64,000 bases of DNA from contig NZ_JADDOL010000009.1 in the NCBI RefSeq assembly GCF_016906305.1, positions 1-64,000 of the forward strand. Direction: 5' to 3'. This DNA comes from Alloalcanivorax marinus (GTDB taxonomy: Bacteria; Pseudomonadota; Gammaproteobacteria; Pseudomonadales; Alcanivoracaceae). Made by a program: the position numbers and the translations under genes. The notes under the pieces were generated by a model. It saw only the letters and a program-made list of their open reading frames with translations. It made no database searches and had not been told where the DNA came from. This document shows, piece by piece, positions 47,033-54,887 of the stretch (its first letter is position 1; every line of letters begins with the position of its first letter).

Positions 47033-47249
47033 GACGCGCTTCGCGCACGCTCGTACCAGCGCCGGGGGCCTTGGTAAAAAAAGGTTTCCGGTAGACCGTG
47101 TCGGACACCCTTCGCTACCGCCGGCTACGCTTCATTACACAGGTGCAACCGCGCCGCTCTACATCCCTTTGCACCCCCCTTCCATAGTCGCTCAATGCGC
47201 CATCCCTCATCGGGGGCGATAACGACGAGAACAGACGGAGGGGTAAACC

Positions 47250-49283
47250 TTGGATACCGATATCAAGAAACTGATCGGCGGCGGCGTACTGGCGTTGCTG
47301 CTCACCGCCTGTGGGGGCGGGGGCGGTGGTGGCGGTGGCGGCGACGCCGGCGGCACACCGACACCGTCCACCCGCGAACTGCCCCAGGAGATGGCGGCGG
47401 TGGTGGACGAGAGCAACGAATTCACCAATGAATTCTGCCCGGAAACCAGTGGTGGCCAGGCGCCCGGCGCCAGCGTCGACCCCGGCGCCTGTGTGCAGGA
47501 GGCGGAAGCCGCGGACGGCGGCGTGCCGGACCCGACCAGCGTGGTGGCGCAATTCTGCCCGGTGGCCTCGGAGTCCTTCGACCTGGGCGGCCTGTTCGAT
47601 CCCACCGCCTTCCTGGACAACCTGCAGAATCCCCAGGACCTGCTCAGCGGCGGGTCCCTGACCTTCCCGCTGGCCTGTCTGCAGGAATCCGCCGGCAATC
47701 TCGGCCAGCTGCAGGACCTGATCGGGGGCAGCAACCCGATCACCGAGCAGCTGTGTCCGGAAGCGGCCGCGGCGGGTGCCTTTGATCCGGCCACCTGCCT
47801 GGCGGAAATCGCCGGCGGCGCCGGTGGCGGCCTGCCCCAGTTCCCCGGTGGCGGGGGCGGTGGCGCGCCGTCCATTCCCGGCGCGGACGGCTTCTGCCCG
47901 ACCACCGCCGCCGGCGGCTTCGGCCCGACCACGGTGCTTGACTGCCTCAACGAAGTCAGCCGCGTGTATGTGACCATCGTCGATCAGATCCGCATCCCCA
48001 ACCCGATCACCGAAGCGGTCTGTCCCCTTGAGCACAGCACCGGTCTGGTGGACCCGGTGGCCTGTCTCAAGGAAGGGCTCGCTGGCAACGGCCTGCCCGG
48101 CCTGCCCGGTCTCGGCGATCTGCCGGGCCTGCCCGGTGGAGGCGGCGGTGAAGGCCCCGGCGTGCCGCCGGAACTCACCGACGCCCTGGGCGCGATCTGC
48201 CCGGACGCGCTGGGCGGCGAAATCGGCCCGACCACGCCCATCGACTGTCTGACCGAAGCGGGCGGCAACCTGGGGGCGCTCACCGACCTGTTCGGCGAGC
48301 TGGGCGGCGGCAACCCGCTTACCGACGCGCTCTGTCCGGCGGCCTCCGGCGCCGGCAGCCTGGACCCGGCCGCCTGCCTCACCGAGGCGCTGCAGAAACT
48401 GCCCGCCGGTGGCGGCGGTGGCACGCCGCAGATTCCGGGCACCGGCATGCTGCTGGACCAGATCTGTCCGGACGCGGCGGCCGGTGAACTGGGCCCGACC
48501 ACCCCCATCGCTTGCCTGAGCGAACTGGGCAGCGGCTTTGGTGGCCTGGAAGACCTGCTCGGCATGGTGGGCGGCGATAACCCGCTGCTCGACCAGCTGT
48601 GCCCGGCGGCCTCGGAGGGCGGCAGCCCGGATCCGGCGGCCTGCTTCATGGAAGCCCTGGAAGGCCTGCCCGGCGCGCTGCCGCTGCCCGGCGGTGGTGA
48701 CGGCGGCGGCCTGCCCGGTGCCGATCAACTGCTGGACCAGCTGTGCCCGGCCACCGCCGAAGGCGAAGTGGGTCCGACCACGCCCATCGACTGCCTCACC
48801 GAGGCGGGCGGTAATCTGGGCGGCCTGACCGATCTGCTCGGCGGCCTGGGCGGCAGCAACCCGCTCACCGACGCGCTCTGCCCGGCGGCGTCCGGCGCCG
48901 ACAGCCTGGACCCGGCGGCCTGCATCACCGAGGCCCTGGGCAACCTGCCCGGTGCCCCGGGCGGTGACGGCGGCGTGCCGGAAATCCCCGGTCTGGGCGA
49001 TGGCCTGGCGCAGATCTGCCCGAACGCGGCGGAAGCGGGCCTGAGCCCCACCCTGCCGCTGACCTGCCTGATGGAGGTGGGAGGCAACTTCGGCCAGCTG
49101 CAGGACCTGCTGGGCGGCGGTCTCGGTGGCGGTGAAGGCGACGCCGATCCGGTGACCGGGCAGATTTGCCCGGAAGCCGGCGCCGGCGGTCTGAGCCCGA
49201 CGTTGCCCCTGGAGTGCCTGCTGGAAGCGGGGCAGAACCTGCCGGATCTGCTCACCGGTCTGCTCGGCGGCCTGGCGCCCTGA
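47250..49283 (+). CDS. Cysteine-repeat lipoprotein of unknown function
   Basis: 677 aa. TTG start with GGAGGG 7 nt upstream; lipobox LLTAC with Cys21 followed by ten glycines, so an anchored lipoprotein. The rest consists of 13 units built on CP-x(12-15)-C-L-x-E, most of them in two alternating kinds: a long one (CPxxxxGExGPTTPIDCLTE) and a short one (CPAASGxxSLDPAACxTE), joined by Gly/Leu/Pro-rich segments such as GNLGGLTDLLGGLGG. The roughly 26 paired cysteines suggest an intramolecular disulfide ladder in the periplasm or at the surface. I do not recognise a named family. It stands alone, with a terminator after it. Confidence 0.85.
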   Translation: MDTDIKKLIGGGVLALLLTACGGGGGGGGGGDAGGTPTPSTRELPQEMAAVVDESNEFTNEFCPETSGGQAPGASVDPGACVQEAEAADGGVPDPTSVVAQFCPVASESFDLGGLFDPTAFLDNLQNPQDLLSGGSLTFPLACLQESAGNLGQLQDLIGGSNPITEQLCPEAAAAGAFDPATCLAEIAGGAGGGLPQFPGGGGGGAPSIPGADGFCPTTAAGGFGPTTVLDCLNEVSRVYVTIVDQIRIPNPITEAVCPLEHSTGLVDPVACLKEGLAGNGLPGLPGLGDLPGLPGGGGGEGPGVPPELTDALGAICPDALGGEIGPTTPIDCLTEAGGNLGALTDLFGELGGGNPLTDALCPAASGAGSLDPAACLTEALQKLPAGGGGGTPQIPGTGMLLDQICPDAAAGELGPTTPIACLSELGSGFGGLEDLLGMVGGDNPLLDQLCPAASEGGSPDPAACFMEALEGLPGALPLPGGGDGGGLPGADQLLDQLCPATAEGEVGPTTPIDCLTEAGGNLGGLTDLLGGLGGSNPLTDALCPAASGADSLDPAACITEALGNLPGAPGGDGGVPEIPGLGDGLAQICPNAAEAGLSPTLPLTCLMEVGGNFGQLQDLLGGGLGGGEGDADPVTGQICPEAGAGGLSPTLPLECLLEAGQNLPDLLTGLLGGLAP

Positions 49284-49311
49284 CGCCGGTGGTTTAAAAA
49301 GGTGTGGTAAC

Positions 49312-49342
49312 AAAAAGCCCCGGCCTTGGCCGGGGCTTTTTT
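49312..49342. terminator. Bidirectional terminator between lipoprotein and aroG
   Basis: Stem AGCCCCGGCC/GGCCGGGGCT with a two-base loop, flanked by five A and a six-T run. It serves the lipoprotein on the plus strand and the convergent DAHP synthase on the minus strand. Confidence 0.88.
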
Positions 49343-53342: not shown

Positions 53343-54887
53343 ATGGCCGAAGAAAGTACACGACTGCGTCTGCGCCAACTGACCGGGGACGATTACCCGG
53401 CCCTGGCCCGTCTTATGGACATGGTCTACCACGACATCGGCGGCGCCTGGCCGGAGGAGACCGTGGCCACCCTGATCCGGCTGTTCCCGGAAGGGCAGAT
53501 GGTGATCGAGGACAACGGCAACCTGGTGGCCACGGCGCTGACCATCAAGGTGAGCTACGACCGGTTCTCCAACCCGCACCGCTATGAAGACCTGATCACC
53601 GACGACAAGGTGCGTTCCCACAGCCGCAAGGGCGACGCCCTGTATGGCCTGGACGTGTTCGTGGACCCGGAATATCGCGGCTATCGGCTGGGCCGCCGGC
53701 TCTACGAGGCGCGCAAGGAACTGTGCCGCGAGGAAAATCTACGCGCCATCCTGGCCGGCGGGCGTCTGCCCGGCTACAAGGACTACGCCGACACCATGTC
53801 GGTGACCGAATACATCGCCGAAGTGGAAAGCCGGGCGATCTACGATCCGATCCTGACCTTCCAGCTGTCCAACGGCTTCGACGTCAAACGGCTGCTCAAG
53901 AAATACCTGCCCGAGGACGAGAGCTCGCGGGGCTACGCCACCCTGCTGGAGTGGGACAATATCCTCTACCAGCCGGACGACGACGGCGACTGGCCGCGCC
54001 GTTCGGTGGTGCGTCTGGGCGTGGTGCAGCGCCGCATGCGCGCCGCCCGCTCGGTGGAGGACCTGCTCAGCCAGGTGGAGTTCTTCGTTGATTCCCTGTC
54101 CGATTACCGCGCCGACTTCGCGGTGCTGCCGGAGTTTTTCAGCGCCCCGCTGATGGGCCTCAAACCGGACCTGAACTCGGTGGAGGCGGTGCGCTACCTG
54201 GCCAGCTTCACCGAGGAAATCCGCGACGCCATGGCCGACATGGCGGTGAGCTACAACATCAACATCATCGGCGGCTCCATGCCGCTGGAAGAGGACGGCC
54301 GTATCTACAACGTGGCCTACCTGATGCGCCGCGACGGCTCCGTGGAAGAGCAGAAGAAAATCCACATCACCCCCCACGAGCGCAAGGACTGGGCGATCCA
54401 GGGCGGTAATGATCTGCGCATCTTCGACACCGACGCGGGCCGCATCGGCATCCTGATCTGCTACGACGTGGAATTCCCGGAGCTGGGCCGGTTGCTGGCG
54501 GAGCAGGGCATGGAGATCCTGTTCGTGCCGTTCTGGACCGACACCAAGAACGGTTACCTGCGGGTGCGCCACTGCGCCCAGGCCCGGGCCATCGAGAACG
54601 AGTGCTACGTGGCCATTTCCGGCAGCGTCGGCAACCTGCCCCGGGTGGACAACGTGGACATCCAGTACGCCCAGTCCGCGGTGTTCTCGCCCAGCGACTT
54701 CTATTTTCCCCACGACGGCACCATCAGCGAATCGGTGCCCAACACCGAGATGCTGCTGTTCGCCGACGTGGATCTGGAAAAGCTCAAGCTGCTGCACAGC
54801 GAAGGCTCGGTGACCAACCTGCGCGACCGCCGCAAGGACCTCTACAACCTGGTGTGGCGCGGTCGCAAGGCACTGGACGCGGAATGA
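53343..54887 (+). CDS. Bifunctional GNAT acetyltransferase/carbon-nitrogen hydrolase
   Basis: 514 aa fusion. Residues about 1-200 form a GNAT domain (LDVFVDPEYRGYRLGRRLYEARKEL, the acetyl-CoA loop). Residues about 220-505 form a nitrilase-superfamily domain with the Glu-Lys-Cys triad in LPEFFSAP, KIHITPHE and LICYDVEFPE. This two-domain arrangement is widespread but its reaction is not established; N-acylated amine or amide turnover is an inference. GGAG lies 7 nt upstream of the ATG. Confidence 0.92.
   Translation: MAEESTRLRLRQLTGDDYPALARLMDMVYHDIGGAWPEETVATLIRLFPEGQMVIEDNGNLVATALTIKVSYDRFSNPHRYEDLITDDKVRSHSRKGDALYGLDVFVDPEYRGYRLGRRLYEARKELCREENLRAILAGGRLPGYKDYADTMSVTEYIAEVESRAIYDPILTFQLSNGFDVKRLLKKYLPEDESSRGYATLLEWDNILYQPDDDGDWPRRSVVRLGVVQRRMRAARSVEDLLSQVEFFVDSLSDYRADFAVLPEFFSAPLMGLKPDLNSVEAVRYLASFTEEIRDAMADMAVSYNINIIGGSMPLEEDGRIYNVAYLMRRDGSVEEQKKIHITPHERKDWAIQGGNDLRIFDTDAGRIGILICYDVEFPELGRLLAEQGMEILFVPFWTDTKNGYLRVRHCAQARAIENECYVAISGSVGNLPRVDNVDIQYAQSAVFSPSDFYFPHDGTISESVPNTEMLLFADVDLEKLKLLHSEGSVTNLRDRRKDLYNLVWRGRKALDAE

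Follow-up and report, generated by a model that had tools for sequence, protein, structure and literature searches.

We identified a repeat lipoprotein of an undescribed family in a 64,000-nucleotide stretch of DNA from Alloalcanivorax marinus (positions 1 to 64,000 of contig NZ_JADDOL010000009.1, assembly GCF_016906305.1; hereafter the window). The host is a marine oil-degrading bacterium, and its relatives in the Alcanivoracaceae are alkane users. In sequence comparisons, the cysteines of this family behave as obligate pairs, which are gained and lost together in different repeat types. Our best reading, to which we give about an even chance, is that of a surface-displayed spacer or coat lipoprotein, whose disulfide-stapled amphipathic hairpins form a flexible stalk anchored in the outer membrane. 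The gene and the elements at its two ends are as follows.

47237-47243, plus strand: Shine-Dalgarno sequence GGAGGGG (GGAGGG conserved in 18/18 sequences)
47250-49283, plus strand: repeat lipoprotein gene, 677 aa, TTG start (from the ORF list, cysteine count and codon comparison)
47250-47312, plus strand: lipoprotein signal peptide with lipobox LTAC, Cys21 as the predicted lipidation site and Gly at +2 (from the sequence; C21 invariant in 16 aligned proteins)
47313-47384, plus strand: linker, Gly-rich and then rich in Pro/Thr/Ser (from the sequence; its length differs among homologues)
49322-49337, plus strand: terminator-like hairpin with a T run after it (weakly supported, with 1 found and 1.3 expected by chance)

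The original prediction of a 677-aa lipoprotein frame with a TTG start was confirmed. A signal peptide is followed by a lipobox ending in cysteine (LTAC, residues 18-21), as in bacterial lipoproteins, and both the TTG and the GGAGGG directly 5' of it are retained in all 18 sequences compared (the window and 17 loci). Several Alcanivorax loci also have an ATG in frame that overlaps the ribosome site, and TTG is therefore the common start. The protein is very acidic (calculated pI 2.9, charge about -77), and Lys and Arg are nearly absent from it (7 in 677 residues). Could the frame instead be an ORF of GC-rich, low-complexity sequence, or lie antisense to a real gene? A 732-aa antisense ORF (window 47115-49313, minus strand) spans the whole lipoprotein gene, and dN/dS falls below 1 (0.11-0.46) in one antisense phase as well, since the wobble positions of this phase are also those of the lipoprotein gene. 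Against five homologues, forward-frame dN/dS was 0.08, 0.13, 0.33, 0.33 and 0.28, lower than that of the best antisense phase in 5/5 comparisons; substitutions between the window and locus L001 fall 18/13/129 by codon position, so that third positions dominate in the plus frame; and the start, the ribosome site, the promoter block described below and the cysteine frame are conserved in two genera. The chance that this is not a gene is negligible: 47250-49283 is a real gene, and the plus frame is its coding frame.

The protein contains 27 cysteines, namely Cys21 of the lipobox and exactly 26 others that form 13 consecutive pairs, where about 26 in regular pairs had been predicted. The 13 units, first described as CP...CLxE, were likewise found: CP starts and C-x-x-E closes all 13 pairs. 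The alternation of long and short forms is exact for units 3-12 (10 of the 13 units), which measure 15 or 17 residues when the 14- and 16-residue Cys-to-Cys steps are counted inclusively; it does not extend to units 1 and 2, which have longer loops, or to unit 13, which is a second consecutive long form. The steps in units 1-13 are 18, 40, 14, 16, 14, 16, 14, 16, 14, 16, 14, 16 and 16. A strict version of the unit pattern matched 12 times in the window protein and at most once in any of 2000 residue shuffles (mean 0.01). The first units belong to a conserved N-terminal core that is common to distant paralogues; in its alignment (A4), the first six cysteines are invariant in 17/17 rows, and the shortest rows end before the remaining four. 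The core and the units, the latter placed by cysteine spacing, are as follows.

47373-48092, plus strand: conserved N-terminal core with five cysteine pairs (alignment A4)
47436-47492, plus strand: unit 1, Cys63-Cys81, step 18
47556-47678, plus strand: unit 2, Cys103-Cys143, step 40
47754-47798, plus strand: unit 3, short
47895-47945, plus strand: unit 4, long
48021-48065, plus strand: unit 5, short
48198-48248, plus strand: unit 6, long
48333-48377, plus strand: unit 7, short
48465-48515, plus strand: unit 8, long
48600-48644, plus strand: unit 9, short
48744-48794, plus strand: unit 10, long
48879-48923, plus strand: unit 11, short
49017-49067, plus strand: unit 12, long
49167-49217, plus strand: unit 13, long

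Pairing of the cysteines extends across the family. All 36 complete members, comprising 32 homologues, the window protein (26) and L107-L109 (14 each), have an even number of cysteines after the lipobox, although even counts are inherited within lineages and the members are not independent trials. The 32 homologues, of all types, span 14-50 cysteines (even in 32/32). Kept outside this count were the truncated or N-containing copies L012, L014, L016-L019 and L021 and an antisense ORF in L006 (also even), while L062, a phosphoesterase-like ORF, was excluded as unrelated. In 18 paralogues that carry an IPVLGD repeat, the 135 segments between IPVLGD motifs contain zero (75), two (59) or four (1) cysteines and never an odd number. 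Disulfides are therefore favoured by the even counts together with these segments, and we consider it very probable, from sequence comparison, that the cysteines form them. In the host genome, four open frames belong to the DSBA family and one gene to DsbC_N. The unit itself is nearly invariant: among the 258 pairs of 15 complete orthologues (window included), 256 start with CP and 255 close with C-x-x-E, and the inner steps are exactly 14 or 16 in 208/213 cases.

Spacing between units is of two kinds. Between a long unit and the short unit after it, the spacing is 26 (59 cases), 29 (29), 34 (4) or 31 (2), and thus 26 or 29 in 88/94, whereas from a short unit to the next long one it ranges from 23 to 62. 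These short-to-long stretches are also richer in Gly (0.29 versus 0.17) and Pro (0.12 versus 0.05) than the long-to-short ones. The tight long-to-short and variable, Gly/Pro-rich short-to-long spacings therefore suggest that the long and short units make one bead and the short-to-long stretch a linker, and the long-plus-short pair looks, from its sequence, like one structural module. This narrows two earlier claims. Linkers had been proposed between the units; those from short to long would act as such, while the tight long-to-short stretches would belong to the module. An ordered disulfide array had also been proposed, and obligate pairing agrees with it, but one uniform array does not describe the protein, which consists of the five-pair core and a variable number of two-unit modules. 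The sequences on both flanks of the units are amphipathic beyond shuffling, with helix moments of 0.362 versus 0.217 and 0.308 versus 0.186 in shuffles (0/1000 each); the 13 units are paralogous, and these shuffles are thus not independent.

Repeat number was compared among relatives, as had been suggested with the original prediction. Complete orthologues contain 11 (L008), 13 (window, L001, L002), 15 (L003-L007), 16 (L010), 22 (L011, L020), 24 (L013, L015) or 25 (L009) pairs, and spacing within units stays constant over this range. In L020 the array consists of 6.8 tandem copies of a 261-bp repeat (90% match), while the window gene has only two short repeats of 24-27 bp; mean likeness among modules is 49% in the window protein and 76% in that of L009. 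The range of copy number, the tandem repeats and the module likeness therefore indicate that the arrays turn over, and have done so more recently in Alcanivorax.

Twenty-one loci came out of a scan of public genomes; 20 carry the label Alcanivorax or Alloalcanivorax, both members of the Alcanivoracaceae, and one is from a Pseudomonadales MAG; the labels of these loci served to equate our genome family f1 with the Alcanivoracaceae. Profile A4 of the N-terminal core (E = 4.4e-84 against the window protein, which is itself one of its rows) matched 37/46 Alcanivoracaceae genomes, in 3 of 8 genera. It also matched 16/390 genomes sampled across the order, all of them Alcanivoracaceae, and 1/369 sampled across the class, that of the window itself. 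In the samples searched, matches to the core profile are confined to this one bacterial family. With the whole protein, tblastn gave hits in three other-family genomes of the order (E 2e-5 to 6e-4), which cover only residues 5-57, the signal peptide and Gly run, and were rejected; A4 had no match in two of these three (G038 and G041).

The protein had been singled out as the best candidate for an undescribed class. It is not isolated, because its own genome carries one paralogue (G000:C1:137526-138104) whose C-terminal part is an IPVLGD repeat. This paralogue (an ORF on the minus strand of locus L089, G000:C1:132500-142500) has the shared core, 14 cysteines and nine IPVLGD-like motifs, with a gene of the redoxin family at a distance of about 350 bp. 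Like the window protein, the IPVLGD paralogues have a lipobox, a linker and an N-terminal core with paired cysteines. They differ from it in the IPVLGD C-terminal repeat, the few cysteine pairs and the separate locus, and a search of 14 loci of paralogues and relatives did not find the 85-bp promoter block. A third form occurs in genus g3, where the shared core is followed by CDPxDPxSCL and IPVLGD repeats. Two genomes of genus g8 encode divergent members (L108 in G410:C1 and L109 in G033:C23) of 690 and 589 aa, each with 14 cysteines after the lipobox. In two Alcanivoracaceae genomes that we take to be those of the model oil degraders A. borkumensis SK2 and A. dieselolei B5, only the paralogue was matched and the orthologue is probably absent; the orthologue would therefore not be needed for growth on alkanes.

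That the family was not recognised from its sequence agrees with the profile searches, in which neither Pfam nor NCBIfam nor PDB gave a credible match. Against Pfam, NCBIfam, PHROGs and PDB sequences, the window protein gave only weak rows (E 0.098 or higher), mostly in the signal and Gly-rich region; Pfam-A reported no family at E up to 10, a setting at which HMMER filters drop most weak matches, and profiles A2 and A4 had no match in PDB. Among six relatives, CW_7 and DUF1482 (both in L009) and Dicistro_VP4 (L053) passed the whole-protein cut-off in Pfam, but no single stretch did, and these rows were therefore taken as sums over repeats. We also set aside the NCBIfam model fusolisin in the leader of L061 (E 2.6e-5, far under its cut-off) and s48_45 in 3/17 A4 rows (best E 1.7e-4). 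No description of this family was found in the open literature searched, and within that literature and these libraries the family is undescribed. AlphaFold models were of too low confidence to show either disulfides or disorder, both for four units with a 52-row alignment (mean pLDDT 56.7, pTM 0.29) and at full length (mean pLDDT 36.2, pTM 0.19). In the weak four-unit model, helices flank the loops on both sides; its comparison with Foldseek (best PDB match E 9.0) and, over 7 chains, with VIA-align 2 (best Z 2.0) was uninformative on the fold.

Upstream of the gene we found a conserved element that aligns in both genera, whereas the alignment decays 5' of it.

47106-47190, plus strand: conserved block, 85 bp, nearly ungapped, with phased YWAC cores and then CATAGTC (15 orthologues, 79% mean column identity)

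A sequence model of the block (R1) gave 24 strong hits (E below 1e-16) in 23/45 genomes of the family, every one upstream of an orthologue on the same contig and 23 of them within about 300 bp upstream of the orthologue's N-terminal core. The remaining hit, in G414, lies about 1.3 kb upstream of the matched part of an orthologue whose N-terminal part was unmatched. Six further rows (E 0.09-0.38) were treated as chance, and no other hit was better than 0.09. The idea of a regulon was dropped, as no second strong site was found in the 45 genomes under strict filters and among the best 100 candidates per genome. R1 was likewise not found at the seven fetched sites of genomes without an orthologue. 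The YWAC cores end at block positions 14, 23, 33, 44 and 57, and CATAGT at 47183-47188 may be a -10 element. The phasing of the YWAC cores is reminiscent of the direct-repeat sites of OmpR/PhoB-type regulators. A leader RNA was also considered, but there was no Rfam match and RNAalifold placed 7 pairs with no compensatory change; a promoter is therefore preferred, and we regard the block as a putative gene-specific promoter element. The conserved CCCCTTC at 47176-47182 could pair with the ribosome site at 47237-47243.

In the proposed architecture, the protein would most likely be lipidated at Cys21 and then sorted to the outer membrane. Gly rather than Asp at +2 leads to outer-membrane sorting, and from its sequence we consider this location probable. 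DsbA would join consecutive cysteines in the periplasm, so that each CP...C-x-x-E unit would form a short amphipathic helix, a disulfide-closed proline-rich loop and a second amphipathic helix, and one long and one short unit would make a module with two disulfides. Joined by Gly/Pro linkers, the modules would make up a long, flexible and strongly acidic stalk that follows the five-pair core, and the length of the stalk would change through gain and loss of modules. The stalk would expose its amphipathic hairpins at the cell surface, and their most plausible contact would be with hydrophobic material. Surface exposure is, in our judgement, evenly balanced, while contact with hydrophobic material, suggested by the amphipathic helices and the life of these organisms, is a tentative proposal. 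The probable absence of the orthologue from the two model oil degraders counts against such contact, and the lack of an alkane gene as constant neighbour speaks against the reading as a whole. Modularity, flexible linkers and length variation are best explained by a surface stalk or coat. The fullest version, in which a surface lipoprotein specific to oil-degrading Alcanivoracaceae adsorbs through its hairpins to oil or other hydrophobic interfaces, evolves its reach by module number and is expressed from a dedicated promoter, would be attractive but is unlikely.

The main rival is a disulfide-stapled lipoprotein that faces the periplasm and has no role at the surface, where it would serve instead as an acidic, flexible spacer or filler from the outer membrane to the cell wall. 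Neither the lipobox nor outer-membrane sorting requires surface export, none of the eight window neighbours scanned looks like a surface-export gene, and the protein is long and very acidic. A constant length would be expected of such a spacer, yet complete orthologues range from 11 to 25 pairs, and no peptidoglycan-binding domain was matched in Pfam-A; we hold this rival to be doubtful but worth serious consideration. Binding of zinc or a similar metal by the cysteine pairs and the conserved Glu, in an extracytoplasmic metal sink, is a weaker rival. Disulfides give no role to this Glu, which we count against the disulfide reading, and C-x-x-E is kept in 255/258 pairs although Lys and Arg are almost absent, so the Glu hardly serves salt bridges. 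The genus g3 relatives moreover lie near zinc-transporter genes of the ZnuA and ABC-3 types (Pfam, L055 and L056), but the orthologues themselves lie away from zinc loci. The IPVLGD paralogues keep the cysteine pair in their C-terminal repeats but have mostly lost the Glu there (by eye), and cysteine pairs in a compartment oxidised by DsbA favour disulfides. A metal sink is thus improbable.

We considered it more improbable still that the protein is a periplasmic thiol or redox buffer that acts with the redoxin genes near both paralogues, one of which is the AhpC/TSA-type gene directly upstream of the window gene. In the Alcanivorax loci where a redoxin was found, it lies beyond the ion-channel gene, and the redoxin-DAHP synthase neighbourhood also occurs without the lipoprotein gene. 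There is no CXXC among the pairs, whose shortest Cys-Cys step is 14, and a thioredoxin-type protein is not indicated, with neither a CXXC nor a thioredoxin domain match in the window protein. The surface stalk or coat remains our preferred reading.

Among known systems, the closest comparison is with the Sel1-like proteins HcpA-C of Helicobacter, which are secreted by a signal peptide and built of helix-pair repeats with disulfides that recur from repeat to repeat (PMC3851747). An Hcp repeat is 36-38 residues long, the repeats form a superhelix, and a disulfide links each repeat from its end to the beginning of the following one (PMC3851747). Both are secreted bacterial repeat proteins with helix pairs and recurring disulfides, which in the window protein are predicted; the window protein differs in its alternating 15/17 units, its modules on flexible linkers, its variable spacing between units, and the predicted pairing of cysteines inside units and not between neighbouring repeats. 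The Sel1 profile had no match to it (Pfam-A, E up to 10). Since repeat length and Sel1 profile differ, and the linked modules would probably depart from a continuous superhelix, we did not assign it to the Hcp/Sel1 family.

Length-variable repeat surface lipoproteins in general have a signal peptide, a long low-complexity stalk and a repeat number that varies between species. The window family shares the signal peptide, stalk and variable repeat number, and is set apart by the cysteine-pair module and by its occurrence in only one bacterial family in the samples searched; its own surface exposure is putative. It is a lipoprotein family peculiar to one lineage, whose repeats follow unusually strict rules and whose gene has its own promoter block. 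The lipoprotein, or its paralogue in model strains, is a concrete candidate for the attachment of Alcanivorax and related bacteria to oil droplets, which to our knowledge still lacks an explanation. The modules also offer a natural series for the study of disulfide-stapled helical repeats.

As had been stated, the neighbours give no function, because no constant partner emerged at the loci compared. An ion-channel gene lies upstream in 16/18 loci with upstream sequence (it was not found in L017 and L020), and DAHP synthase lies downstream in all 17 loci with enough downstream sequence; the sequences of L001, L002, L014 and L018 stop within or shortly past the lipoprotein gene. No alkane gene is a constant neighbour of the orthologue at the loci compared. 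An alpha/beta hydrolase gene is directly upstream in L009 and L013, the two Alcanivorax loci tested, and at L055, a locus of the g3 relatives, a rubredoxin reductase is also nearby; these neighbours hint at a lipid or alkane life. Eight genomes without an orthologue were searched for DAHP synthase and seven sites were fetched (G006 was left out). At six of the seven, the neighbours are 65-279 bp apart with no lipoprotein gene. In G001, which belongs to the same genus and is without an orthologue, a FadL/TodX-type outer-membrane protein is encoded at the lipoprotein site (L122:5217-6569, minus strand). At this locus in both genera there is also a gene (window 53343-54887, plus strand) that fuses a GNAT acetyltransferase domain to a carbon-nitrogen hydrolase domain.
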